Positions 8,662 through 29,264 of a stretch of DNA of 40,860 nucleotides are shown piece after piece (the stretch's first letter is position 1; every line of letters begins with the position of its first letter). The DNA is from a virus: the IMG/VR virus record IMGVR_UViG_3300033148_003449, positions 1 through 40,860 of that record. One strand, 5' to 3'. A program made the translations under genes and the position numbers. A model generated the notes under the pieces. It searched no databases and was not told the origin of the DNA. It saw nothing but the letters and a program-made list of their open reading frames with translations.

Positions 8662-8849
8662 AAGCTTAAGATTTTCGCAACTTCAATAATTGCATATGCT
8701 ATTAAAGCCGGGCCGCCTAAAACTAATATAATAACAACCGTGATTAATAATAATATGCCAACAAGGCCCGCGCCGCATGTTAATACAAGGGGAGCGAATA
8801 TAAATATTTCGTCAATGATATTGCTTATTAAGTTTTTTAATTTATTCAA
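8658..8849 (-). CDS. Small hydrophobic membrane protein
   Basis: This frame encodes a protein with a long hydrophobic region (FAPLVLTCGAGLVGILLLITVV and ILVLGGPALIAYAIIEV), probably two membrane helices. The frame is open back to an ATG at 8912, but neither upstream ATG has a ribosome site. A TTG at 8849, preceded by GAGGCGG and close to the stop of the dehydrogenase, is the best start (63 residues). It could be a holin-like or membrane-targeting protein. Its placement before rusA gives no clear clue. Confidence 0.55.
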   Translation of the reverse strand: MNKLKNLISNIIDEIFIFAPLVLTCGAGLVGILLLITVVIILVLGGPALIAYAIIEVAKILSL

Positions 8850-9624
8850 TATCGCCGCCTCTAAATAATTGATTAAGACAAAAGACATCTTTAAAAAATG
8901 CAATACTCGCATGATTTTTTGTATATCCCATCATGGCCTTAATATTTGGTCTAAAACATTTTCCTCCATAGCCTTTTTTGCTATCCGGGCCCGGCACATT
9001 TGTGTGCTCTTTATTTATATATCCGGTTAATAAAGATAAATTTCTAACTTTGTTAAAATCAATCTTTTCATTTTCACATAATGAATTAATGATATTCCAA
9101 TAAGTAACTTTAACCGCGCCCGCGCAATTATGAGTAAACTTAGTCATTTCCGCCTCTTTATTTTTCACATAATGAATCTGTTTTTTATCGTCAAATATAT
9201 CTAAGGCCGTCTTGTAAATGTCGTATGACTCGGGACAATCCTCGGGAAATCCGACAATAATATCATTCTTGCACATATCGTCAAAGGCTCGACGCTCGGT
9301 TAAAAACTCCGGCATTGCTGAAATAATCTTATCATGCTTTTTTGATAGCATGTCACAAGTCCCCGGCGTTACGGTTGAGCGTATGAATATTTTAGCCCCT
9401 TGCGGACATCGTCTAATTGACTCATCTATAATGGATAAATCCTCTTTAAATTCCTTTATTGCAACCGGAACGGCTATAAATACCGCATCGCAATCATTAA
9501 AATCATCAAAGTAATTGCAACCGGGATCATAAATTTTAATCTCATGTTCTGTTTTCTCTTGGATCCATTGTTTTAATGCTCCCCCAACAACGCCAAGACC
9601 GCAAAAACCTATTTTTTTAATCAT
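8842..9624 (-). CDS. Short UDP-sugar dehydrogenase (UDP-glucose/UDP-GlcNAc 6-dehydrogenase family)
   Basis: This protein is likely to oxidise C6 of a nucleotide sugar to a uronic acid with NAD. The Rossmann motif is GFCGLGVVGG (residues 6-15), followed by IRSTVTPGT (81-89) and MPEFLTER (104-111). The catalytic cysteine is C223 in GYGGKCFRPN, where typical enzymes read GFGGSCFPKD. At 260 residues it lacks the C-terminal UDP-binding domain of the normal enzyme of about 400 residues, although the catalytic residues remain. It overlaps the epimerase gene as ATGA, so the two are made together, like the TviB/TviC or WbpO/WbpP pairs. It could be a working minimal enzyme or a decayed copy. Confidence 0.8.
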   Translation of the reverse strand: MIKKIGFCGLGVVGGALKQWIQEKTEHEIKIYDPGCNYFDDFNDCDAVFIAVPVAIKEFKEDLSIIDESIRRCPQGAKIFIRSTVTPGTCDMLSKKHDKIISAMPEFLTERRAFDDMCKNDIIVGFPEDCPESYDIYKTALDIFDDKKQIHYVKNKEAEMTKFTHNCAGAVKVTYWNIINSLCENEKIDFNKVRNLSLLTGYINKEHTNVPGPDSKKGYGGKCFRPNIKAMMGYTKNHASIAFFKDVFCLNQLFRGGDIE

Positions 9625-10580
9625 TTCTTTTTTTCCTTTTTAAAATGCTCTAAATATAGCTCTAAGCCGTTTTTGTAATTCACAATAGGCCTATAACCCA
9701 AAAGGTTTTGTGCTTTTCTTAAGTTTGCCCGGGCTTTTTTTATATCCCCTTGCCTCTCATCAACATAAATAATCTTACTTTTTGAGTCCATTATTTTAAG
9801 CATGTCATTGGCAAGCGTTGTTAATGTCGTTAATTTACTACAACCAACATTATAGAAAGTGTTTCTTGCATAGTTTTCCTTACTAATTGCGCAAAGAATA
9901 TTCGCATTAATTACATTTGTAATGTAAGTAAAATCCCTAGCCGTCTCGCCGTCGCCATATATATAGACATCTTGATCGTATTTCATAGCCTCGGCCCATT
10001 TTGGTATTACCGCCGCATAAGCCCCTTTTGGATCTTGTCTTGGACCAAACACATTGAAGTATCTAAGGCCGTAATATTTTAGGCCGTAGGTTTCTGACAT
10101 TGATTTAGCTTGTAATTCATTGATTGATTTAGACATTGCATAAGGGCTCTTTATTTTACCCTCTAGGCCCTCGGTCCTAATTGTTTTAGGCGTTTTGCCG
10201 TATACACTACTCGACGACGCAAAAACAATTTTCCCGGATTTAAACTCAACGCAAGCCTCTAATATTCTTTGAAACCCATCAACATTATTTTTAAACGTGG
10301 CCCGCGGATCTCCAAACGATCTAGGGACGGATCCTAATGCGGCTTGATGAAATACAACATCGAAATATTTAGCCCTTTTAAATATCCGCTCAACCGAAAT
10401 ATAATCAGATACATCTATTTGGATAAAATCAAAATTATCTAGTTTTCTAACTGAATCTATATTTCTTAATTTTCCGGTTAATAGACTATCAACGCCTATA
10501 ACTCTATGACCTTGTTTTGCGTAAAATTCGGCTAAATGTGACCCTATAAAGCCGCAACAACCTGTGATTAAAACATTCAT
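9621..10580 (-). CDS. NAD-dependent nucleotide-sugar epimerase (WbpP/TviC-like)
   Basis: This 319-residue extended short-chain dehydrogenase probably epimerises C4 of a UDP-sugar such as UDP-GlcNAc. It has TGCCGFIG (residues 6-13) for NAD, SSSSVYG (122-128), and the YxxxK pair Y147/K151 in SPYAMSK. The HQAALGSVPRS segment is typical of the UDP-N-acetylhexosamine 4-epimerases WbpP and TviC. The substrate is inferred from that and not certain. The ribosome region carries AAAAGATAGGGGG, the motif shared with other accessory genes. It is coupled by ATGA to the dehydrogenase. Confidence 0.88.
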   Translation of the reverse strand: MNVLITGCCGFIGSHLAEFYAKQGHRVIGVDSLLTGKLRNIDSVRKLDNFDFIQIDVSDYISVERIFKRAKYFDVVFHQAALGSVPRSFGDPRATFKNNVDGFQRILEACVEFKSGKIVFASSSSVYGKTPKTIRTEGLEGKIKSPYAMSKSINELQAKSMSETYGLKYYGLRYFNVFGPRQDPKGAYAAVIPKWAEAMKYDQDVYIYGDGETARDFTYITNVINANILCAISKENYARNTFYNVGCSKLTTLTTLANDMLKIMDSKSKIIYVDERQGDIKKARANLRKAQNLLGYRPIVNYKNGLELYLEHFKKEKKK

Positions 10581-12956: not shown

Positions 12957-13010
12957 TTAATCCCCTCTTTTTTTGTACCGTAATACAATATTAGCCTGTT
13001 TAATCTATCC

Positions 13011-13035
13011 AACTACCGTGAAATCCTCGGTAGTT
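13011..13035. repeat. Inverted repeat, 8-base arms, 9-base spacer
   Basis: The arms AACTACCG (13011-13018) and CGGTAGTT (13028-13035) are perfect inverted repeats. The element lies in the 172-base gap between the 66-residue ORF and the membrane-protein pair. No T-run follows on either strand, so an operator or RNA-level element is more likely than a simple terminator. Confidence 0.55.
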
Positions 13036-13069
13036 CGTTTACAATTATTTTAAGCCTATGTTTATAATT

Positions 13070-13093
13070 ACTGTTCACTTTATAATGAACAGT
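13070..13093. promoter_or_regulatory. Inverted repeat around a TATAAT box, operator-like
   Basis: ACTGTTCA (13070-13077) and TGAACAGT (13086-13093) form a perfect dyad with an 8-base spacer. On the plus strand the spacer and the first base of the right arm read TATAAT at 13081-13086. A dyad over a -10 box is the usual form of a repressor site, but no gene lies close downstream on the plus strand. A hairpin in the leftward transcript, 36 bases after the stop of the 66-residue ORF, is the alternative. Confidence 0.4.
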
Positions 13094-13128
13094 GTAAAGC
13101 TAAAATTATGTGTAATAAGTTCATAGAG

Positions 13129-13329
13129 TTAGCCGTTTTTGTTAACTTCAAACCTGATATTAGGTTTATCAAATTCTTTAAAAATAAAGGCATCTTTAAA
13201 CCCTTCAATTTCAAATATTCCAAAGTAAATATCTAACCACTTACAAATCAACTTTATATTAGGACCGTTAATTATAAAATTTTTAATATCATTATCTTTT
13301 GAGTATTGTTGACCGTGTAATAAATCCAA
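13129..13329 (-). CDS. Hypothetical small protein
   Basis: This 66-residue protein starts at TTG 13329, with AGGGGATAT upstream at good spacing. It contains aromatic-rich stretches (ICKWLDIYFGIFEIEGF) but no known motif. It follows the methyltransferase gene by 20 bases. A 172-base intergenic gap with two inverted repeats lies downstream. Confidence 0.5.
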   Translation of the reverse strand: MDLLHGQQYSKDNDIKNFIINGPNIKLICKWLDIYFGIFEIEGFKDAFIFKEFDKPNIRFEVNKNG

Positions 13330-14559: not shown

Positions 14560-14880
14560 CTAATGGTTATTTTCTAAAGCCTCAATCCTATCATTAAGCA
14601 AAGAAAGTGTATTTAATATCATATCAAGCTTATTTTCTAAACTATCCTTATGTTTAATATTATTATTAATAGATTTATTTTCATTATATTTATTTAATTT
14701 ATTATAGTAATGCAAAACCCTTTTCTCTGAAATCTCTTGTCCTATTAATTCTTTCATCCAACCATTAATTAGAGGATATTTAACATTGAATACCTCAAGA
14801 CTTTTATTTGAAAACCCGCCTTTACTTGATTTAAATTTATTTATTAATGATTGATTAATGATTAATGTTTTATCATTCAT
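14560..14880 (-). CDS. Hypothetical early protein with C-terminal coiled coil
   Basis: This 106-residue protein is the first leftward gene after the divergent region, with a good ribosome site (AAAGAGGTG). The first half is globular (SNKSLEVFNVKYPLINGWMKEL). The end (LENKLDMILNTLSLLNDRIEALENN) has heptad spacing and should form a coiled coil. First-gene position and a dimerising tail would suit an early regulator, but no DNA-binding motif is clear. Confidence 0.55.
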   Translation of the reverse strand: MNDKTLIINQSLINKFKSSKGGFSNKSLEVFNVKYPLINGWMKELIGQEISEKRVLHYYNKLNKYNENKSINNNIKHKDSLENKLDMILNTLSLLNDRIEALENNH

Positions 14881-14959
14881 TTTGACACCTCTTTTTGTTT
14901 ACAACTAAATTCATTTAATAAAGTTTAATTCACATAAATATTAATTAACATCAAGGTTT

Positions 14960-14988
14960 TTGAACTCATTACACATCAATAATATATT
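14960..14988 (+). promoter_or_regulatory. Candidate sigma70-type promoter for the large RNA
   Basis: TTGAAC (14960-14965) and TATATT (14983-14988) are separated by exactly 17 bases. Transcription would start near 14995, at the left edge of a block full of paired segments. No start codon with an open frame follows, which fits a non-coding transcript. Confidence 0.55.
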
Positions 14989-14994
14989 GCCAAG

Positions 14995-15556
14995 GAAGGT
15001 TTTAGGAAGTCCCGCGGGACAAAGTACCCCATTAGCCCAACGCGTAAACATTGAGCTTTGACCTATGTTGGTCTGGGGATTCTTTGCGAAATATCTTGCC
15101 TAAGCAATGGTGTGAGGTTTTCGCGCGCTCTTGTTTTTTACTATTCAAGAGAGTTGTTAATTAAGGCTATTGCCTAGCAAATAGTATTGCTCCCCTTTAC
15201 GAATTAACAAATAGCTTTGTTTTTCCCTTAATTCTTTTTTCTCTTAAGGTTTACAGTCAAATAAGAATGCAATTAAACCCCTAGGGATAATCTGCACATT
15301 AAATCTTATTCGACCCATGCAACGCTACAATCTGCGTTTGTGGTTTAAAGGTCCCGCGGTACCACAAATAAAACTTATTCCCCGCCGTTGGGTTTTTCCC
15401 TACCGTTGTTATTTAATAACGAAATAAGTTTTTAATAATCTTAATTTTAAGTGTCGACAAGAACGGGAAACAAATGTATTCTTTTCCCGTTCCTATTGAC
15501 ACCTATCTTTAGAACACTATCCTAGGGCTCTTGATTTCTCAAGGGCCTTTTTTTAT
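14995..15556 (+). ncRNA. Large structured non-coding RNA, about 560 nt
   Basis: This gene-free stretch has a promoter at 14960-14988 and ends in a clear rho-independent terminator. It holds many perfect paired segments: CCCCA 15027-15031 with TGGGG 15074-15078, enclosing CCAAC/GTTGG; ACTATT 15139-15144 with AATAGT 15180-15185; GAATTAA 15201-15207 with TTAATTC 15228-15234; AATAAGA 15260-15266 with TCTTATT 15304-15310; TTTGTGGT 15337-15344 with ACCACAAA 15361-15368; AAAACTTATT 15370-15379 with AATAAGTTTT 15423-15432; and GAACGGGAAA 15461-15470 with TTTCCCGTTC 15483-15492. CCGCGGGAC at 15012-15020 can pair with the hairpin loop at 15351-15359. No long frame exists on either strand. Size, phage setting and ornate fold recall the ROOL and GOLLD RNAs. 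I cannot confirm membership; it does not look like tmRNA or RNase P RNA. Confidence 0.65.
15496..15523 (+). promoter_or_regulatory. Possible second promoter, TTGACA-16-TATCCT
   Basis: TTGACA (15496-15501) and TATCCT (15518-15523) are 16 bases apart. They resemble the promoter 61 bases further on (TTGACA, then TATCTA). Transcripts from here would run straight into the terminator hairpin, so it may be an accidental or ancestral duplicate. Confidence 0.3.
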
Positions 15557-15558
15557 TT
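15524..15558 (+). terminator. Rho-independent terminator of the large RNA
   Basis: GGCTCTTGA (15526-15534) pairs with TCAAGGGCC (15539-15547), with one G-T wobble and a TTTC loop, and is followed at once by seven T. This is a textbook terminator on the plus strand. With no gene upstream on that strand, it implies a non-coding transcript ending here. Confidence 0.85.
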
Positions 15559-15585
15559 GACACAAAGGCTAGATTTTAATATCTA
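15557..15585 (+). promoter_or_regulatory. Candidate promoter for the rightward operon
   Basis: A perfect TTGACA (15557-15562) follows the terminator T-run. With a 17-base spacer the -10 would be TATCTA (15580-15585), which is weak. It is placed about 30 bases before the ERF start codon and would drive the ERF-subtilase-HNH block. Confidence 0.5.
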
Positions 15586-15615
15586 GACATAAGGATAAAA
15601 AAGGATAGGTAAAAT

Positions 15616-16395
15616 ATGAATGAATCAACGGGCGAATTATCGCCATGTATCAAACCACAAAATCAAAGTGAAAATATTAATGAATTAGCGGGAGCACTTG
15701 CAAAGGCTCAAAGTTCAATTAACTCCCCTATTAAGAATCAAGTAAACCCATTTTTCAAATCTAAATATGCGGATCTTAATTCAATTATAGATTGCTCTAA
15801 AAAGTCACTCTCAAGCAATGGCCTTGCCGTGACTCAATTAACTTTATATATAGACAATAAATTTTTGTTAGTTACTAAATTAATTCACTCATCCGGCCAA
15901 TGGATGCAATCTCAATACCCTTTACCCGCCAATGGCAAACCTCAAGAAATAGGATCCGCTTTAACATATGCAAGGCGTTATGCCTTAAGCGCAATATTGA
16001 ATGTTTCGGCCGACGACGACGACGACGGAAACGCGGCGAGTAATAATAAGCCTAAAACTCAAGCATTACCGCCAAGACCTAAACAAGTATCAAAGCCGGC
16101 GCCAATTAAGCCCCCCACAAGGCCGCCGGCTAATTTAAATAATCAAAAGGCTAAAACATACGCGCCGGGCCCGGAAATGGCACCCCCGCCCGATATGCCC
16201 CCACATAAGCTTGATCTAGGTCAATACGTTATGACAAAAGGGGCGAATGCCGGAAAAACTCTAAACTCAATAGACAAATTAAAGCTTGATGAATGGCTTA
16301 AATATATGACCGAGAAGGGATTCACAAAGGGCGCCGATTATAAACAAGTTGAATTGTACTTAAATCAAACCGCGGCAACCGCGACGAGTTATTAA
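15616..16395 (+). CDS. erf: ERF-family single-strand annealing recombinase
   Basis: This is a 259-residue protein of the P22 Erf family, which anneals complementary single strands for genome circularisation and recombination. The family core is clear: ELAGALAKAQ at the start, NPFFKSKYADLNSII, GLAVTQLT, and EIGSALTYARRYALSAILNVSADDDDDG. A Pro-rich linker (about 145-195) leads to a C-terminal domain (QYVMTKGANAGKTLNSID). The ribosome region is AAAAGGATAGG. It is the first gene of the rightward block. RusA at 8200-8661 is a natural partner. Confidence 0.92.
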   Translation: MNESTGELSPCIKPQNQSENINELAGALAKAQSSINSPIKNQVNPFFKSKYADLNSIIDCSKKSLSSNGLAVTQLTLYIDNKFLLVTKLIHSSGQWMQSQYPLPANGKPQEIGSALTYARRYALSAILNVSADDDDDGNAASNNKPKTQALPPRPKQVSKPAPIKPPTRPPANLNNQKAKTYAPGPEMAPPPDMPPHKLDLGQYVMTKGANAGKTLNSIDKLKLDEWLKYMTEKGFTKGADYKQVELYLNQTAATATSY

Positions 16396-16659
16396 ATGTT
16401 GGCCGTTGTAACTGCCTTAATTTTTATAGCTATGGGCAACGCCGTCATTGACGCGCCGATGAATGACCTTCATAAATGGCAAGAGAAAAGGGCCGAGATA
16501 AAGCGGCAACGTGAAAACCGACCGCAAGCTGAAAAGGATCAAGAGGAAATCGACAAGGCCCTTGCAAGACATATCAGACATAAGGAAAATATGGCCGAAT
16601 ATTACAGGCTTAAACGGCTTAAAAATAAGGCTATTTTTGATTATGAACAAGGGGAGTAA
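16396..16659 (+). CDS. Small protein with N-terminal hydrophobic segment and charged helix
   Basis: This 87-residue protein begins one base after the ERF stop (TAA then ATG) with no ribosome site, so it relies on coupled translation. The first 16 residues are hydrophobic (MLAVVTALIFIAMGNA). The rest is a strongly charged helix (KWQEKRAEIKRQRENRPQAEKDQEE). A membrane anchor with a cytoplasmic coiled coil is likely. Function unknown. Confidence 0.6.
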   Translation: MLAVVTALIFIAMGNAVIDAPMNDLHKWQEKRAEIKRQRENRPQAEKDQEEIDKALARHIRHKENMAEYYRLKRLKNKAIFDYEQGE

Positions 16660-16872
16660 ATGAAGCCAAACCTAGGGGGGTTTATGTGGAATAAAGAAAT
16701 TATAAAGGCTTATTTTAAACTTTTGGCTATAATTGCCGGCGTGACTTTGATTTTATTCTCTTTTATGGCGTTAATATTATTAGTATTTGTTGAGCAAAGC
16801 CTTTTAGCCGGGTTTGCTCTTTTCCTAATTCTCCCCTTTATTCTTATGTTTTCTAGGGGGGACTTTGGATAA
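16660..16872 (+). CDS. Small membrane protein, two transmembrane helices
   Basis: This is a 70-residue protein with two hydrophobic helices (LLAIIAGVTLILFSFMALIL and LLAGFALFLILPFILMF) separated by a short loop. Two starts are possible: ATG 16660 with AAGGGGAG, or ATG 16684 with an AGGGGGG site. A holin-like role is possible from topology, but the lysis genes are on the other strand. Confidence 0.6.
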   Translation: MKPNLGGFMWNKEIIKAYFKLLAIIAGVTLILFSFMALILLVFVEQSLLAGFALFLILPFILMFSRGDFG

Positions 16873-17029
16873 TATTACATTTTTAAAAGTTATTAGTATT
16901 AAAGAATCATGCCAAACATTCTATCAAAGGGCTAGTTTCTATAATTGGATCAAAGTCTTATATAAAAATAAAAGATTAACTATTCAAGAATTTCGATCTT
17001 TACAATATATTTTACCCGATTATAATTAA
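16865..17029 (+). CDS. Hypothetical small protein, 54 residues, TTG start
   Basis: The frame begins with TTG at 16865, inside the end of the membrane protein gene, with AGGGGGG just upstream. It encodes a protein ending LTIQEFRSLQYILPDYN, with several aromatic and basic residues. The spacing to the ribosome site is short. It fills an otherwise empty gap before the subtilase, which supports it. Function unknown. Confidence 0.45.
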   Translation: MDNITFLKVISIKESCQTFYQRASFYNWIKVLYKNKRLTIQEFRSLQYILPDYN

Positions 17030-17055
17030 GCTTTCTTTTAATCATAGGGGAGTTT

Positions 17056-18201
17056 ATGAAAATTATATTACCGTTTTTAGTATTATCGGCATTTTTGTTT
17101 AGTTGCGGGCAATCAAACTTGCATACATTTAAGAAGCCTTATCCTGATTTCAATTACTCCGGCACTCGATTTATTGTTTATTCAAAATCTAAAATTAAAA
17201 CTCATCAAGATATTGAAAAGGCCATAGGCCGAAACAATGGGCGAATACTTAAGAAACTTAAATATAATAAGGGATATGTTGCTTATTTTAAAGACAATCA
17301 CATAGTAAATCTGGACAAGAATATAAGATTTGAATTAGATATAATTCATCAATCATCATTAGGATCATGTTCACAAGAGCCCGCGCCGCCGCAAGAGCCA
17401 AACCCGGATCAACCAAGTCAAGTTTTGGATTGGGGGATTGATCGCCTTAATGCTCGAAAAGCATGGGAGATATCAACCGGCGCCGGCGTGACCGTTTGCG
17501 TTGTTGATACGGGAATAGATACCAAACACCCGGATTTAATAGACAACATTAAGGGCGGAATGGGTTTTGTAAATGGATCCGATTCTTATTATGACGACGC
17601 GGATCACGGTTCACATGTTTCGGGAATAATCGCCGGCGTTGATAATGGAATTGGCATTAAAGGGCTCGCTTTTAACGCTAAGATTTGGGCCGTTAAAGTT
17701 TTAGACGAAAACGGGAGCGGATGGGGATCGGATATAAGCCAAGGGATCTTAAATTGCATAGGTAAAGCCGATATTATTAATCTAAGCCTTGGATCGGATA
17801 GGCCCTCAAGCATAATATATGACGCCATAAAAGAAGCATACGACAAGGGCTTAATAATTGTAGGGGCGGCCGGGAATGACGCCGCAAACGTCGTAGGATA
17901 TCCCGCGGCCTATGTTGAAGTTGTTGCCGTTTCATCCTCAAATTATAGGGATGAATTTAGTTATTTTAGCAATTTTGGGCCCGAAATAGATTTTATTGCC
18001 CCCGGATCTAGTGTTTTATCAACCGTACCCGGCGGGGATTACAAGAAATTTTCGGGGACCTCTATGGCAACCCCCTACGTTGCCGCCATGTATGCGCTCG
18101 CCTTATCCGCTGGCAAAAGAGATATAAAGGCCGTTGATATTGGCTTAGATGTTTACAAACAAGGCCAAGGCTTGCCGGACGCATGGGAAACTGTTAAATA
18201 A
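17056..18201 (+). CDS. Subtilisin-like serine protease, predicted lipoprotein
   Basis: This is a 381-residue secreted protease. The signal peptide ends in LFSC (lipobox, Cys17), so the mature protein should be a lipid-anchored periplasmic or outer-membrane protein. Residues about 36-100 look like an inhibitor-type propeptide (RFIVYSKSKIK). The S8 catalytic triad is complete: D151 (VVDTGID), H184 (DHGSHVSG) and S336 (SGTSMATP), with oxyanion N274 (AAGND). It has a good ribosome site (AGGGGAG). Subtilases are rare in phages. Roles could be host conversion, exclusion of other phages or processing of surface proteins. I see no inactivating change. Confidence 0.9.
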   Translation: MKIILPFLVLSAFLFSCGQSNLHTFKKPYPDFNYSGTRFIVYSKSKIKTHQDIEKAIGRNNGRILKKLKYNKGYVAYFKDNHIVNLDKNIRFELDIIHQSSLGSCSQEPAPPQEPNPDQPSQVLDWGIDRLNARKAWEISTGAGVTVCVVDTGIDTKHPDLIDNIKGGMGFVNGSDSYYDDADHGSHVSGIIAGVDNGIGIKGLAFNAKIWAVKVLDENGSGWGSDISQGILNCIGKADIINLSLGSDRPSSIIYDAIKEAYDKGLIIVGAAGNDAANVVGYPAAYVEVVAVSSSNYRDEFSYFSNFGPEIDFIAPGSSVLSTVPGGDYKKFSGTSMATPYVAAMYALALSAGKRDIKAVDIGLDVYKQGQGLPDAWETVK

Positions 18202-18221
18202 AAATAAAAGGATAGGTATAA

Positions 18222-18728
18222 ATGATAGAATGGAAAACAATAAAAAACTTAAATAATTATTTAATAAGTAGTGATGGGCAAATAAAAAATATTAAAAGAA
18301 ATAAAATTAAATCCTGGTTTATATCAAATTCAGGGTACAAAAGAGTATCTTTATATAAAAATGGAAAAGGCAAAAATTACTCAATTCATCGCCTTGTAAT
18401 ACTCGCATTCAAAGGCTCTTCAAAGTTAACCGTCAACCATAAAAACGGGATTAAGACCGATAACAGACTAGAAAACCTTGAATATTGTACTTATTCACAA
18501 AATCATAAGCATGCTTATGAAAATAAATTAAGAGAAAAAAAGCGCGGATCAAAATCTCATTATTCAAAGTTAACCGAAAAACAAGTTTACGAAATTAAAT
18601 TTTCATTATTGAGTAAATATAAAGATTTTGAAATATCTTTAAAATATAGCGTGACAAGGCAAACAATAAATCGAATTAGAAATTTAGAAACGTGGAAACA
18701 TGTAGGTATAAACTATTTTGATAAATAA
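18222..18728 (+). CDS. HNH homing endonuclease (NUMOD4-HNH)
   Basis: This is a 168-residue endonuclease with an N-terminal NUMOD4-type module (EWKTIKNLNNYLISSDGQIKN shows the WxxI...YLIS.DGxI pattern), then HNH (HRLVILAF, VNHKNGIKTDNRLENLE, NHKHAY). A C-terminal helix-turn-helix follows (TEKQVYEIKFSLL and KYSVTRQTINRI). It is free-standing, a mobile gene likely to cut phage DNA lacking it. The ribosome region is AAAAGGATAGG. The 3' end overlaps the oppositely oriented amidase gene by 16 bases. A paralogue lies at 23767-24273. Confidence 0.9.
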   Translation: MIEWKTIKNLNNYLISSDGQIKNIKRNKIKSWFISNSGYKRVSLYKNGKGKNYSIHRLVILAFKGSSKLTVNHKNGIKTDNRLENLEYCTYSQNHKHAYENKLREKKRGSKSHYSKLTEKQVYEIKFSLLSKYKDFEISLKYSVTRQTINRIRNLETWKHVGINYFDK

Positions 18729-22078: not shown

Positions 22079-22419
22079 TAATAGGACTCTTTTCTTAAGA
22101 ATGTTTCAAATTCAGAATCACGTTGTTTTTTAGATTTATAATCATTCGATAGGTCTTGCCGTTTTTTAACAATTTTCCTCATTGTCTTGTCTATGGATCC
22201 TATCCAACGGCAATATGTATTTATTAGCCCTTCCGTTGTTAGTTTCTTTTTTTCCGCGGCACTTATGCCCATTTGTAGGCCTTTTCTAATAGCTAATAAT
22301 TGATTTAACTTTTCATATTTTAAACAATCTCTTAGCCAAGCGTTCCATTTCTCATGGTCTTCAAAGCCCTTTATTTGTCCCGCATATAATTTTAAAACGT
22401 CAATTTCTTGTGTCGTCAT
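22078..22419 (-). CDS. Unknown small protein inside the sugar operon
   Basis: This 113-residue, Lys-rich, mostly helical protein (ISAAEKKKLTTEGLINTYCRW, MRKIVKKRQDLSNDYKSKKQRD) has no known motif. It overlaps both neighbours (ATGA upstream with the CMP-sugar synthetase/GT2 fusion, TAATG downstream with the NeuB-like gene). Such tight coupling suggests one complex. It may be a phage packaging-type helical protein that happens to lie here, or a partner of the truncated NeuB. Confidence 0.6.
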   Translation of the reverse strand: MTTQEIDVLKLYAGQIKGFEDHEKWNAWLRDCLKYEKLNQLLAIRKGLQMGISAAEKKKLTTEGLINTYCRWIGSIDKTMRKIVKKRQDLSNDYKSKKQRDSEFETFLRKESY

Positions 22420-23750
22420 AAATAAGCCTCTTTTATTTTATCCTCGGTTTGTTTGCGCTCAACTAAGTTAGTTTTGCTCATAGAATTATCATGTTGTCGA
22501 TAAAAGAATATAGGGCGGTTTAAATAACCTATTTTTAATATAGATTGAGCCCTTGCCCATATATCTAGAGAATCATGATTTCTTAAATCCTCTGTAAATT
22601 GTAAATGCTTAATTGCACTTGTTTTAAACATAGCGCATCCTACGTGGTGCATCGCGGACCCCTTTTGTATGATTCTAGTCGATCCATGGTGATTATCACC
22701 GTAAATAATTTCCTTTTCACTTTGCAAAATATGGTCAAACATTCGCTTAATAGAAAATTCATTTGTAAGATAGTCGTCGGCATCAATCCTTATAATATAA
22801 TCTCCCCTAGCTTCTTTTAATGCCACATTAGAGCTAGACGATAATCCGATGTTTTTATTGTTTCTGATATATCTAACATTAGGATATTTCTGCGCCGTCT
22901 CGGCCATTAAAACCGGGCTTGCATCGGTTGAATGATCGTCAATTATTAACAATTCGCAATCATTAAATATTGTTTGTTTTGTAATACTATTTAAACATTC
23001 GGCAAGCCAAAGAGCCGAATTATAAGAGCATGTATAAATAGTCACTTTAGGCATTTTATTTATTTTCTTAGCCCATCTATTAGCGCCCAAAAAGCTTAAG
23101 ACCTCTTTTAATGTGCAATTATTCCCTAAAATTGCGAAAATTGCCGTCATTAATTCCAAGTCTTTTGGATAATCTATTAATAATCTAATGTTTTTTCTAT
23201 CAAGAGCCCCGATATATCCCGGCTTAATATCCATTGAATTAGTCGTAATAGCTCTAATGCTGTAAGTAATATGTTCAACATTTTCAAACTTATCACTAGC
23301 CCTTGCAAGAGCCGTCAAAGATATGATTTCAAAACCCGTGCCCGGTATTAATCCCGTGCAAGATAAATAATCTAAATTATCTTGTTTGAATATGGCTAAG
23401 GCTTTTAGTAATTGATCGGGATCAACAAAAATTTTATCGTGGGTAACACGGATTATTATATCTAATTTATTAGCGACGGCGGCGCTATACATTCTTAATA
23501 AAGGATCCTCGCCCATTCCGGCAAAACATTTATAATTTTGTTTCCCAAACTTATTAAAAATATTTGAATACGCCGCAACCTCATTTTCTGGATAAGCGTA
23601 AATAATGGGCAAATTTGTCTTACTTAATCTAGAATGTAAATGATGTATTAAAGATTTTCCGTTTATTTCATGCGCCGGCTTTTTGGGTATTCTATAAGAA
23701 TTTAATCTTGTACAAACGATAATTCCCGCATTTTCTTTATTATTTAACAT
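22416..23750 (-). CDS. Fusion of SpsF-type sugar cytidylyltransferase and GT2 glycosyltransferase
   Basis: This is a 444-residue two-domain protein. Residues 1-235 resemble the SpsF/CMP-sugar synthetase family (IIVCTRLNSYRIPKKPAHEINGK with the Rxx(S)xR(L/I)PxK pattern, then GEDPLLRMY and RVTHDKIFVDP). Residues 236-444 are a family 2 glycosyltransferase (VTIYTCSYNSALWLAECLNS, DDHSTD at 271-276, DADD at 323-326). One chain could therefore activate a sugar with CTP and transfer it. It is translationally coupled to the 113-residue protein and the NeuB-like synthase. The ribosome region is AAAAGGATAGGGG. Substrates are inferred from context only. Confidence 0.82.
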   Translation of the reverse strand: MLNNKENAGIIVCTRLNSYRIPKKPAHEINGKSLIHHLHSRLSKTNLPIIYAYPENEVAAYSNIFNKFGKQNYKCFAGMGEDPLLRMYSAAVANKLDIIIRVTHDKIFVDPDQLLKALAIFKQDNLDYLSCTGLIPGTGFEIISLTALARASDKFENVEHITYSIRAITTNSMDIKPGYIGALDRKNIRLLIDYPKDLELMTAIFAILGNNCTLKEVLSFLGANRWAKKINKMPKVTIYTCSYNSALWLAECLNSITKQTIFNDCELLIIDDHSTDASPVLMAETAQKYPNVRYIRNNKNIGLSSSSNVALKEARGDYIIRIDADDYLTNEFSIKRMFDHILQSEKEIIYGDNHHGSTRIIQKGSAMHHVGCAMFKTSAIKHLQFTEDLRNHDSLDIWARAQSILKIGYLNRPIFFYRQHDNSMSKTNLVERKQTEDKIKEAYL

Positions 23751-23766
23751 AATTTCCCCTATCCTT

Positions 23767-24273
23767 TTATATATGTGTCCAATTTTTTTTTCTTACTATA
23801 AGTCCAATAAGTCCCTGACTGACATTAAAAATGTCTGCTAAATTTCGTTGAAAATAAATACCTTGACGGTAAATATCTCTAATTAAAATAATATCATTAT
23901 TGCTTAATTTAGCGCGTCCGTGATTTGCCCCGCGGTTATCCTTAAGGCCCGTTAGATATGCATGTTTATTATTTTCTGACATTGTACAATATTCAAGATT
24001 TTCAAGCCTATTGTCGGTTTTAATTCCGTTTTTATGATTGACCGTTAATCTTGATTGACCGTTAAATGCTAACATAACTAAACGATGAACCTTTAATATT
24101 TTCTTTTTATAAAAATTTTTATATTTTAAACTTAACCCCACTACAAGATATCCCGCTGGCGTCGTTGTTTGTTTTAAGAATCTTGCGCCCTTAGTGTTTA
24201 GAGAAAATATTTTTCCTTTATCACTAACTAAATAATCATCAAAGCCCGGTATTGAACGCCATTCTATAATCAT
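23767..24273 (-). CDS. HNH homing endonuclease (NUMOD4-HNH), second copy
   Basis: This is a 168-residue endonuclease with the same domain order as the one at 18222-18728: NUMOD4-type start (EWRSIPGFDDYLVSDKGKI), HNH core (HRLVMLAF, VNHKNGIKTDNRLENLE, NNKHAY) and a C-terminal HTH (NLADIFNVSQGLIGLIV). The core is nearly identical to the paralogue, while the flanks and synonymous bases differ. It sits inside the sugar operon, between radical SAM and the SpsF-GT2 gene, as a free-standing mobile insertion. The start has AAGATAGGGG. Confidence 0.9.
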   Translation of the reverse strand: MIIEWRSIPGFDDYLVSDKGKIFSLNTKGARFLKQTTTPAGYLVVGLSLKYKNFYKKKILKVHRLVMLAFNGQSRLTVNHKNGIKTDNRLENLEYCTMSENNKHAYLTGLKDNRGANHGRAKLSNNDIILIRDIYRQGIYFQRNLADIFNVSQGLIGLIVRKKNWTHI

Positions 24274-24291
24274 TTACAACCCCTATCTTAA

Positions 24292-25260
24292 TTAACTATC
24301 TTTATTAGGTTTAAAACCCTTAAATGACTCATAACTTGAACAACCCTTGCAAGGCTCGCACAAAAAGGCTTTTTTATCTCTTAGGTTGGATCTAACCATT
24401 TCCGCCTTAGATGAATTAAACAATTCATATAATGATGTTTCATTTATATTACCTAAAACTAGCTTTTCTTTTATATCAGGGCAACACATTTGAGCCCGCC
24501 CATCATGTAAAAAAATCATTCTCACAAAGGCTTGGATGCATGATTGCCTATTGTCAAAATCTCGATCGTTTACGGCCTCATCTTGGACGCTCGTCTCCAA
24601 CCTTCCGTCAACCATATCACGTATTGAAACCTCTATTTCAGGCCATTTACTTTTTGCAATCGCCATAAAATCCTCATCGGCGTTTGCTTTTGTTCTTACT
24701 GCTTGTAAAATTAATTGTGTCTCGGACTTAATACGCTCTTTAGAATTGTAAAATAAATCAATGTTTTCCATGATTAAATCATGGTCCCCCTTGATTCTTT
24801 GGCTTTCAAAAATTTGTTTATTAAAAGAATCAAAGGAAACTTTGACTTTGGTTAAGCTAGCAAGGCCGTCAAATTTATCATCCCTAAATTTAGGTAAAAT
24901 CTGAAAATTAGTATTTGCGATTCTATCAATAAATGTCAACCCACTTGCTAAACTCTTTGCGTATTTTACAATTTTTGTATAGCTAGGGTTTATAGTGCTT
25001 TCGCCTCTAAAGTTGAATTTTAATGAGTTAACCTCAAGCCTAGCGGATTGATCTAGGATATCAAGCGCGATATGCTCCGGCATTATTCCCTTTGTAAAGG
25101 GGAGTTTGTCTTTGTTTGACGCGGAATGATAACAATAAGAACAAGCCAAATTGCAAGAGCTTGCAAGCTCAATCATGACATCAACCGGGACAATAAGGCC
25201 CATGTCTTTTCCGTCTAAATATCGGTGTCTATAAATATTATATAATGTTTCTTTATTCAT
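24292..25260 (-). CDS. Radical SAM protein with SPASM-like C-terminus
   Basis: This is a 322-residue protein with the 4Fe-4S motif CNLACSYCYH (C36, C40, C43), which cleaves S-adenosylmethionine to start radical chemistry. C-terminal cysteines (MCCPDIKEK, LCEPCKGC) look like a SPASM-type auxiliary cluster site, with GNINETSLYELFNS typical of that region. Similar proteins occur in surface-sugar and peptide-modification loci. In this operon it may modify the sugar or its carrier. The target is unknown. The ribosome region is AAAAGATAGGG. Confidence 0.85.
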   Translation of the reverse strand: MNKETLYNIYRHRYLDGKDMGLIVPVDVMIELASSCNLACSYCYHSASNKDKLPFTKGIMPEHIALDILDQSARLEVNSLKFNFRGESTINPSYTKIVKYAKSLASGLTFIDRIANTNFQILPKFRDDKFDGLASLTKVKVSFDSFNKQIFESQRIKGDHDLIMENIDLFYNSKERIKSETQLILQAVRTKANADEDFMAIAKSKWPEIEVSIRDMVDGRLETSVQDEAVNDRDFDNRQSCIQAFVRMIFLHDGRAQMCCPDIKEKLVLGNINETSLYELFNSSKAEMVRSNLRDKKAFLCEPCKGCSSYESFKGFKPNKDS

Positions 25261-25327: not shown

Positions 25328-26095
25328 TTAAGGGCCGTAGGGCAATTCTTTTGCTATAATATTACAATTAGAAATTCTAATTCTATTTCCAGTTAATGCG
25401 GCAAATTGCACGGCATACGTACAGGCGGCGGTTGGATTAAAATCAATGGCAAATAAGGTTGAGGGAAAAGCTCTTGATGTTGACGTTGACGGTAATTGGA
25501 ATTGATTTTCAAAAATAACATTTGTTGTTGTATCTCTATATATTCTAAATTGACCAACAACCCCAACGCCGATTGTCAAAGATTGGAACTCATAAGAGGC
25601 AAGAGCGGCGTTTAAACTATGTGGGCCGAAACTAACCTCCATATAATTATTATATACAGATGTTGCGCTCAATGTTGCAACCGTTTTCCAAACACTCCCC
25701 CCGGCCCCCTCGGATGTATTTGTATTTGCCGATCCATATTGAAAAGCTAAATTTAATGAACCAACAACATCTAAACCATTAGCGTTGATAGATGTAACCG
25801 TTGAGCCCTCAATCACAAAGTTAAATGCGCCGGTTGTATCGGTTAAACTTCCCTCTATGATTAAGCTTGCCGTTGTTGTTGATGTCTCTAAATCAATGGA
25901 TCCAACATAAGCCTTATTCCACCTATGATCATCCGTACCCAAATCATGTGTCAAATCGGACGCGCTTGCGGTGTCTGTATTTACCGGCAATATATGGCCC
26001 CGAAAAACACTAAAATTTGTGTTTACTTCGGATGATTTGGCCGAAGTATTGGGAGAAAACTCATTAAATGCGGTTATTGTTGCGCTTGATGGCAT
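25328..26095 (-). CDS. Tail fibre / receptor-binding protein 2
   Basis: This is a 255-residue beta-rich protein. Its N-terminus (MPSSATITAFNEFS, then NTNFSVFRGHI and DLGTDDHRWNKAY) is shared with the protein at 28659-29264, including 41 identical bases at the 5' end. This common part is probably the tail attachment domain. The C-terminal part (about 110-255, SVWKTVATLSATSVYNNYMEV) is different and should be the variable binding head. It closes the tail-tip module before the radical SAM gene. Confidence 0.7.
   Translation of the reverse strand: MPSSATITAFNEFSPNTSAKSSEVNTNFSVFRGHILPVNTDTASASDLTHDLGTDDHRWNKAYVGSIDLETSTTTASLIIEGSLTDTTGAFNFVIEGSTVTSINANGLDVVGSLNLAFQYGSANTNTSEGAGGSVWKTVATLSATSVYNNYMEVSFGPHSLNAALASYEFQSLTIGVGVVGQFRIYRDTTTNVIFENQFQLPSTSTSRAFPSTLFAIDFNPTAACTYAVQFAALTGNRIRISNCNIIAKELPYGP
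26055..26095 (-). repeat. 41-base direct repeat at the 5' end of fibre gene 2
   Basis: Bases 26055-26095 are identical to 29224-29264. Both copies cover the first codons of fibre genes with a common N-terminus. Such identity next to diverged sequence is a sign of recent recombination or gene duplication and gives a site for further exchange. Confidence 0.9.
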
Positions 26096-26599: not shown

Positions 26600-28662
26600 T
26601 ACTTGATTCTCCTCGCTGATATTTTATAGCCTAATGTTTCAAGGTTTGTAATGGATCCGGATGCATTTGCCTTTAAGTAATAAGTTGTTGTTTCCGTTAA
26701 CGTAACATTTTTCCTCATAAGATTTACAGTGTCCGCCCGTCCCGTTGTTGTTGTTTTAGCCTCATAAACTCTATTGTCACCCGTTGCCGCATCACTAAAA
26801 GAATTTCCCGACTCCGTAGAAACACCACAATTTAATGTGGCCGTTGTTGTCGCGCCGTTTGAATAATAAACAATTAGCGCCGAAATATCCCACTCGCCCG
26901 GCGTTAAAATAATACTTGTTAAATCGCCCCATGTCCCGGCGGTGATTGTGAAACTTGTTTGAGTAGAATTTATTGCTTCAATTAATTCGCTTGTCCCGTG
27001 CACGGAAAAGGCGCTAAAATCAGCAACGCGAATTACATCAATGCTGAAATCGTCAGCGCTCCCCAATACTGTGTAATTAGTGTCAACCGTAGAATCAACG
27101 TAAACCTCTAGATAGTCGCCTTTAACAAGTGAAACAACCCTGTCAATATCAATAATCATTAATGTTGCGGATGAATTAGCAAGACGGCGGCGTAAAGAGG
27201 AACCATTTTTATATAAAAATAAAGTGTATTGTTCGCCGTCCGAAACATTATTTAATGTTGCATCAATATTTATTAAATAATCACCGTCTTTTATTATATC
27301 TATTCTATTTGAGCTAGTATCAACCATTGAAAACTTATCAATTGAAGCCACATCAATTGTGACTTTGGTTGCGGTTGCCGCCGCAATGGCCTGATTATTG
27401 CTTAATTGAGCTTGTGCCTTAACCGTACTAAAAAGGGCCTCGGTGGTGCTTATGCTTGCACCCGCGGACCAACCGGAAATTGGGATTTTAAATTGAAAAT
27501 CAATAATATCTCCGGTTGTCCAAGTATGCGGCCCGCTCACAGTGATTGATGTTGGTACCGCCGAGGATGTTAAATATTTTAATTCGAGTTCGGTTGACGA
27601 TATCGCAACAACGGACAAGGCCATTCTAGTGATCCCCGTCTCTAGTGCCGTACCCCGCCCAACCGTGGCCTCATTGCCAACCGTTAACTTTGTTGTGTCT
27701 ACACTTTGACCGTCTGGTATATCTATTTTTAAATAAGTCCCAACATTTGTTGTTGACCCTAATTCCATTCTTATATGACCAACCATATAAGACCCGGACC
27801 TTGACCAGTAAGCGTCGTCAATTGTGCCATTGCCTAAAGTAAATGGCCCACTTGTAAACGTGGGAGTAAAATCGACGGGCGGCGTTATAATCGCGCCCGG
27901 AATTAGCCCACTAGGCCCGCTTTTAATATCGTCAAAATATAATAAATATTCGGACGCCGTATCACTGTCTGAAGCTAAATGAAAACTTAACCTATAACTA
28001 GCTGTAGTGGATCCTAATATAATTTGAAACGGTAAAGCAAATTTTCTATTTGGGATTGCCTCGGTATCATCCCCAATAACGGCAAGCTCAACGCTGTTAG
28101 TAATATCATAGGCCTTTAAAGACCAGTCCCCACTTGTTAACATTCCCGAAAAATCGATTTCAATAGTGCCGGATAATTTTCGGCCATAGTCTTGAGGATC
28201 GACCGTTTGACTGGTTAAAGAAACTCCATGCCCGGATCCGTCCGCGGCGCCGTGCTGAATCACCAAAGAGTTTTCGCCCTCTAATAAGCCCGTGGTTGAT
28301 GTTAATACAATACCGACTGATGTCGGTATCCCACTTGTCCCGTCGGTATAAGCCCCCCCGGAATTATAAACATTAACGATGCCCGATAAAGATCCCGAGT
28401 TAATGGTTTCGTTTGAATCACTAAAATAATTTTTAGCCCCGCCGGATCCCCCGCCGCCTAAATCGCCCCACGTTGAGCCATTATATAATTTTGCTTTGTT
28501 GGCGCTTGAGTCGTATCGAATCGCGCCCGCGTTGCCGCTTGACGGGATTGTGCTAGGCTTTAATTGTATTAAATCCGCCGTGATAACCGTCGCGGCGTAT
28601 GCATAAATTGAAAATAAAAATATTAATAATATATATCCAAGATATTTTCTTAAGTGTTTCAT
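26599..28662 (-). CDS. Large fibre-like protein with a Sec signal peptide
   Basis: This is a 687-residue protein. The N-terminus has basic KHLRK, a hydrophobic core (YILLIFLFSIYAYA) and a likely cut after AYA. Then comes the GAIRYDSSANKAKLYNGSTW motif often found at the base of phage and bacterial fibre proteins, a Gly-rich linker, and several beta domains. One (about 270-400) has YWSRSGSYMVGHIRM and HTWTTGDIIDFQFKI. Another (about 430-550) resembles a C1q/TNF-like jelly roll (IIKDGDYLINIDATLNN, YTLFLYKNG). Virion proteins are not normally exported, so this is odd for a tail fibre. It is coupled by ATGA to the first receptor-binding gene. Confidence 0.78.
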   Translation of the reverse strand: MKHLRKYLGYILLIFLFSIYAYAATVITADLIQLKPSTIPSSGNAGAIRYDSSANKAKLYNGSTWGDLGGGGSGGAKNYFSDSNETINSGSLSGIVNVYNSGGAYTDGTSGIPTSVGIVLTSTTGLLEGENSLVIQHGAADGSGHGVSLTSQTVDPQDYGRKLSGTIEIDFSGMLTSGDWSLKAYDITNSVELAVIGDDTEAIPNRKFALPFQIILGSTTASYRLSFHLASDSDTASEYLLYFDDIKSGPSGLIPGAIITPPVDFTPTFTSGPFTLGNGTIDDAYWSRSGSYMVGHIRMELGSTTNVGTYLKIDIPDGQSVDTTKLTVGNEATVGRGTALETGITRMALSVVAISSTELELKYLTSSAVPTSITVSGPHTWTTGDIIDFQFKIPISGWSAGASISTTEALFSTVKAQAQLSNNQAIAAATATKVTIDVASIDKFSMVDTSSNRIDIIKDGDYLINIDATLNNVSDGEQYTLFLYKNGSSLRRRLANSSATLMIIDIDRVVSLVKGDYLEVYVDSTVDTNYTVLGSADDFSIDVIRVADFSAFSVHGTSELIEAINSTQTSFTITAGTWGDLTSIILTPGEWDISALIVYYSNGATTTATLNCGVSTESGNSFSDAATGDNRVYEAKTTTTGRADTVNLMRKNVTLTETTTYYLKANASGSITNLETLGYKISARRIK

Positions 28663-29264
28663 TCAATGGCCCCTCTTAAAACATAAACGTCTAATATTCC
28701 CGCGGCAAGTGAATCAAGATTTGCCCCGGTTGATGTTGCATAAACTCTAATTGATGTTGCCGTATCAAAGGCCGGAACGTCAAAGATTGAATAAATATCC
28801 TCGACCGTTGAAGTGTTAAACGCATCGTACGGCATAACGATCCGATCATTGTCCGCGCTTGTTCCAAGCATAACGCTAATTGCTGAAATACCGCCGCCGG
28901 TAAAGGCCGCCGTTTGTCTCATTACAACCCGCTCAATTGTGCCCATTGCCGGACTTGAGAAAATCTCACTAAAATTTGTAGCCGTTGCCGCCTGTAAGTC
29001 TGTATATGTAATTGAATATTTATTCCAATTTGTCACAAGACTTGCCGCCGTTGCTAAAATAAAATTGTTGGCATAAACATTGCGCCAAGCGTATTCCGTT
29101 GAGCCTAAATCATAAGTCCCCGTTGCCGCCGCCGTTGCTGTATTTGGATCAACCGCAATTATATGACCTCGAAAAACACCGAAATTTGTATTATGATCCG
29201 CGCTCTTAATCAGTGTCTTAGCTGAAAACTCATTAAATGCGGTTATTGTTGCGCTTGATGGCAT
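28659..29264 (-). CDS. Tail fibre / receptor-binding protein 1
   Basis: This 201-residue protein shares its N-terminal attachment region (MPSSATITAFNEFS, NTNFGVFRGHI, YDLGSTEYAWRNVY) with the protein at 25328-26095. The rest (about 75-201) is a different beta-rich domain. It lies directly after the tail hub, the usual place for the first fibre. Its stop overlaps the start of the signal-peptide fibre. Confidence 0.68.
   Translation of the reverse strand: MPSSATITAFNEFSAKTLIKSADHNTNFGVFRGHIIAVDPNTATAAATGTYDLGSTEYAWRNVYANNFILATAASLVTNWNKYSITYTDLQAATATNFSEIFSSPAMGTIERVVMRQTAAFTGGGISAISVMLGTSADNDRIVMPYDAFNTSTVEDIYSIFDVPAFDTATSIRVYATSTGANLDSLAAGILDVYVLRGAIE
29224..29264 (-). repeat. 41-base direct repeat at the 5' end of fibre gene 1
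   Basis: These bases are identical to 26055-26095, covering the first codons of the paired fibre genes. Confidence 0.9.

Follow-up and report, generated by a model that had tools for sequence, protein, structure and literature searches.

To our knowledge, very large structured RNAs encoded by phages number only a handful, and what ROOL and GOLLD do has yet to be established. ROOL occurs in phages and prophages, in lactobacilli and in the rumen, and its hallmarks include covarying conserved base pairs and an oligomer that forms a nanocage. It is often located close to tRNA islands – a frequent setting rather than a strict requirement – and such a setting is usual for both ROOL and GOLLD, with many GOLLD members exceeding 800 nt (PMC12286853). 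Phage ICP1, which lacks tRNAs, expresses a noncoding transcript of ~800 bases from a gap devoid of open reading frames (ORFs); this is the most abundant ICP1 transcript, and was likened by its authors to GOLLD and ROOL by length only (PMC7567579). The put element of HK022 is presented in the cited account as a phage leader RNA that is structured and targets RNA polymerase in cis (PMC9378689). Long noncoding phage transcripts outside ROOL/GOLLD-type families or settings, such as that of ICP1, are already known; the example described here is not one of them.

The window – the whole stretch of viral DNA that was analysed, 40,860 bp – is an entire IMG/VR record with 37% GC and direct terminal repeats of 114 bp, and is therefore probably a complete phage genome. 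It is a tailed phage, as shown by its predicted genes for portal, terminase, capsid protease, major capsid protein and tail. Nearly all genes are carried by the minus strand, the exception being a plus-strand block (15616-18728) whose first gene codes for an ERF single-strand annealing protein (15616-16395); there are no tRNA or tmRNA genes in the entire genome. The ERF operon also includes a gene for a subtilase-family (S8) peptidase (17056-18201), an odd companion for a recombination module. A preliminary description of this DNA correctly reported a 735-base gene-free region, which occupies exactly 14881-15615, from the minus-strand ORF at 14560-14880 to the plus-strand ERF gene; the two bordering ORFs are intact, and the stretch 14881-14991 is AT-rich. 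The features of the locus are as follows.

14881-15615, no strand assigned: divergent gene-free control region, the sole long gap without genes in the genome.
14960-14988, plus strand: promoter-like TTGAAC-17-TATATT, ~6 bases 5′ of the structure, of a kind found at chance density.
14993-15523, plus strand: predicted structured RNA body, its 5′ arm (14993-15006) pairing with 15508-15523 immediately before the terminator.
15009-15362, plus strand: predicted core multibranch domain with a GC-rich closing helix of GTCCCGCGGGAC (15009-15020) with GTCCCGCGGTAC (15351-15362), which can form on both strands.
15154-15210, no strand assigned: local three-way junction TTGTTAATT/AATTAACAA around two hairpins, on both strands at most 1.5-1.7 kcal/mol above the global optimum.
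15370-15432, no strand assigned: perfect 10-bp stem AAAACTTATT/AATAAGTTTT with two hairpins inside.
15448-15505, no strand assigned: long hairpin, nearly continuous on the minus strand (z -7.9) and interrupted on the plus strand (z -5.2).
15524-15554, plus strand: intrinsic terminator AGGGCTCTTGATTTCTCAAGGGCCTT with a T-run, the best-scoring in the genome.
15557-15586, plus strand: likely promoter of the ERF operon, TTGACA-17-TATCTA.

The predicted folding energy is -163.8 kcal/mol (z -6.1) for 14992-15560 on the plus strand and -171.1 kcal/mol (z -8.2) for 14985-15535 on the minus strand, and in both cases none of 100 shuffles was as stable; the equal or better folding of the opposite strand had been overlooked in the preliminary description. 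In a scan of the genome in 204 windows of 200 bases, 15401-15600 ranks first and 15001-15200 fourth for structure, with the middle part (15201-15400) merely mildly structured. The fold signal is real, peaks in what is the 3′ part in the plus-strand reading, and is without strand specificity. The predicted plus-strand fold contains at least eight helices of 5-11 bp together with a multibranch core closed by 15009-15020/15351-15362, in agreement with the helices and multibranch architecture first proposed. Chance is the likely explanation of a 13/15 match that 15496-15510 shows to the antisense of the ribosome-binding site of 14560-14880. The claim that no open frame fits also holds, as the longest ORF fully within the gap has 39 aa and PHROG families gave no match to its six-frame translations, even at E<=1. 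Folding beyond dinucleotide-matched chance and the absence of an ORF – together the mark of a large structured noncoding RNA – were both found, and the region is probably a structured RNA on one strand or the other.

No Rfam 15 model matches the genome at the gathering threshold, and within the region nothing credible appears at E<=10, with no match to ROOL, GOLLD, OLE, HEARO, or group I and group II introns. Just two models, NsiR8 and MIR1507, both on the minus strand, reach E<0.1; they merely track the long hairpin and fall far under their curated cut-offs. As judged by covariance models, recognisable ROOL, GOLLD, OLE and HEARO RNAs and self-splicing introns are excluded, and the suggested membership of one of the first four families falls with them. 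Like ROOL, the candidate is phage-encoded, large, without an ORF and broadly similar in size, and is multibranched in its predicted fold; it differs from ROOL in having no tRNA island and no homologues as well as no model match. Its likeness to GOLLD is that of a phage-encoded large structured RNA, the candidate's structure being predicted, whereas it is ~560 nt long, does not match the GOLLD model (conserved 3′ domain), and is not in a tRNA island. Transcription has been demonstrated for the ICP1 RNA, whereas the candidate is known from sequence alone, and its sequence matched no phage in the phage-collection search. We regard the region as a strong candidate large structured phage RNA, an orphan that fits no known family tested. 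The observation made in the preliminary description is sound and its interpretation partly supported: the terminator, the fold statistics and the missing ORF are best read as a large structured noncoding RNA, while known-family membership does not stand and the plus strand is plausible, if unsecured.

Nucleotide searches found no homologue of the region by blastn against annotated phages and plasmids (short hits to phages at E<=10 being chance), in 18 phages with the same capsid gene, in which the region is absent, in 50 records whose ERF gene belongs to the same family, or in scans of IMG/VR. The latter comprised a scan with an exact 22-base sequence (no matches) and a loop-pattern scan (20 matches, none with flanking similarity); translations of the RNA's frames used as degenerate DNA probes gave nothing in two scans. 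In bacterial genomes, the 11 matches to a degenerate 20-base sequence, nearly all of them actinobacterial, were read as chance. Pattern and degenerate-probe scans of this kind detect close relatives only, and near-identical records may be hidden in the IMG/VR scans. Run on the relatives, a covariance model built from 15018-15156 as a single sequence recovered its own sequence only; in the 50 ERF-type records it recovered nothing. With neighbouring genes as baits, the exonuclease and a 106-aa protein recovered no relatives in IMG/VR, and ERF recovered relatives only at 57% identity or less. That the RNA is unique does not follow from these negative results.

Head and tail genes recur in the capsid relatives, for the most part at 40-80% identity, but the stretch from ~11 to 18 kb does not; this part of the genome is therefore exchanged quickly. 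Where the major capsid protein is 75-79% identical, the gaps are short and at most weakly structured. The relatives in this identity range vary in GC content from 38% to 58%, and the capsid cluster therefore spans very different hosts; a host search in a sample of 396 actinobacterial genomes gave one distant capsid match. Also kept in relatives, at 8842-10580 and 22416-25260, are nucleotide-sugar dehydrogenase/epimerase genes near the terminase, and a glycosyltransferase and a radical-SAM gene inside the structural block.

The promoter-like TTGAAC-17-TATATT is present as first described (TTGAAC at 14960-14965, a 17-nt spacer, and TATATT at 14983-14988), and a second candidate, TTGACA-18-TAAATT, is located at 14882-14911. 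A promoter-like site by itself is weak evidence, because such sites occur in the surrounding 1.4 kb at chance density (8 found vs 7.4 expected). Three of the genome's seven plus-strand TTGACA boxes fall in the gap. The supposed textbook terminator is real, with an 11-bp hairpin at 15524-15549 and a loop of 4 followed by the T-run; in the stricter scan of both strands genome-wide it scores 24.6, the next best being 19.6. Beyond it, the likely ERF-operon promoter has its -10 box overlapped by an operator-like palindrome, CTAGAT-TTTAAT-ATCTAG (15569-15586).

The terminator, the cluster of TTGACA boxes and the end-to-end closing stem favour the plus strand, the duplex energy of this stem (14993-15006/15508-15523) being matched by 2% of random genomic 18-mers, compared with 24% for its minus-strand counterpart. 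The minus strand is favoured by its better energies, A-rich loops and a base skew as in minus-strand genes. Its z-score is the more favourable in two of the three sub-domains compared closely: minus and plus values are -7.9 and -5.2 for the long hairpin, -3.3 and -1.9 for the three-way junction domain, and -3.3 and -2.9 for the third domain. Unpaired bases in structured RNAs are usually A-rich; here they are 43% U and 6% G on the plus strand and 50% A on the minus strand. The AT/GC skew of the region (-0.10/-0.08) equals that of the minus genes, its AT component being opposite to that of the plus genes, and G.U pairs are balanced at 14:14 between the strands. These properties count against an independent plus-strand RNA. 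We nonetheless lean modestly towards the plus strand, because the terminator would otherwise have no evident transcript to end.

A separate plus-strand RNA is the most economical account of the promoter, the closed multibranch body, the terminator, and the ERF promoter with its operator-like palindrome, and we consider the chances about even that ~14994-15554 encodes an independent large multibranched noncoding RNA. Transcription would start at a promoter within 14882-14988, the RNA body would be closed by pairing of its 5′ and 3′ ends, and the RNA would be released at 15524-15549, just ahead of the separately promoted ERF operon. The stable folded RNA may then accumulate and act in trans during infection, by analogy as an RNA scaffold or RNA-protein particle, as is thought for ROOL- and GOLLD-type RNAs.

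The main rival is that the minus strand provides a structured 5′ leader of ~600-700 bases for the leftward operon, whose first gene (14560-14880) is followed by the long series of minus-strand genes. This leader would act in cis, either on translation or on the transcription complex, perhaps as an RNA-based antitermination or attenuation element; HK022 put, as the account cited above presents it, would be a model. The lower energy and z-score of the minus strand, its A-rich unpaired positions and a skew identical to that of the minus genes all fit such a leader, as do the GAAA tetraloop on the minus-strand version of the terminator hairpin and the terminator scans, which found no minus-strand terminator from the structure to the first leftward gene. 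However, no sigma-70-like minus-strand promoter was found near 15520-15615, and the presence of the genome's strongest plus-strand terminator at the same place is left unexplained. Moreover, the antitermination RNAs known so far are far smaller than this; put elements, like that of HK022, are simple RNAs of much lesser size. We consider the leader somewhat unlikely.

It is improbable that the region works instead as DNA, as a replication origin or another cis site with inverted repeats that adopt hairpins or serve as protein-binding sites, making both strands look structured. The strands do fold about equally, the G.U pairs show no strand bias, 14881-14991 is adjacent and AT-rich, and this sole long intergenic gap adjoins a recombination gene; however, an origin is less likely because the gap contains neither iterons nor a DnaA-box match, and a ~530-base multibranch fold with a terminator is atypical of one. 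A decayed gene or cargo remnant with incidental folding would accord with the minus-like skew and the absence of the region from all relatives, but is highly improbable given a z of about -8 that none of 100 shuffles matched in stability, and was rejected as a decayed gene when no frame resembled a PHROG family.

Returning to an independent plus-strand RNA, we claim no class, because there is one sequence only. Tentatively, the region could represent a class of large phage RNA (~560 nt) that has not been described before and has no relation to ROOL, GOLLD, OLE or HEARO; the RNA would be expressed from the central control region of this 41-kb phage and would work as a particle of RNA alone or of RNA and protein. 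If so, an unrelated large RNA in a small phage, encoded in the main control region and not in a tRNA island, would imply more than one origin for such RNAs and offer a compact system for studying what large phage RNAs do.

Two further observations concern other parts of the genome. A second, short intergenic gap contains a perfect, operator-like inverted repeat, ACTGTTCA-N8-TGAACAGT, around TATAAT (13070-13093), and 13001-13200 is the second most structured of the 204 windows. The minus-strand genes at 25328-26095 and 28659-29264 both match the same loci in relatives G004, G005, G006, G007 and G016, and look like paralogues flanking a long gene of the structural region.
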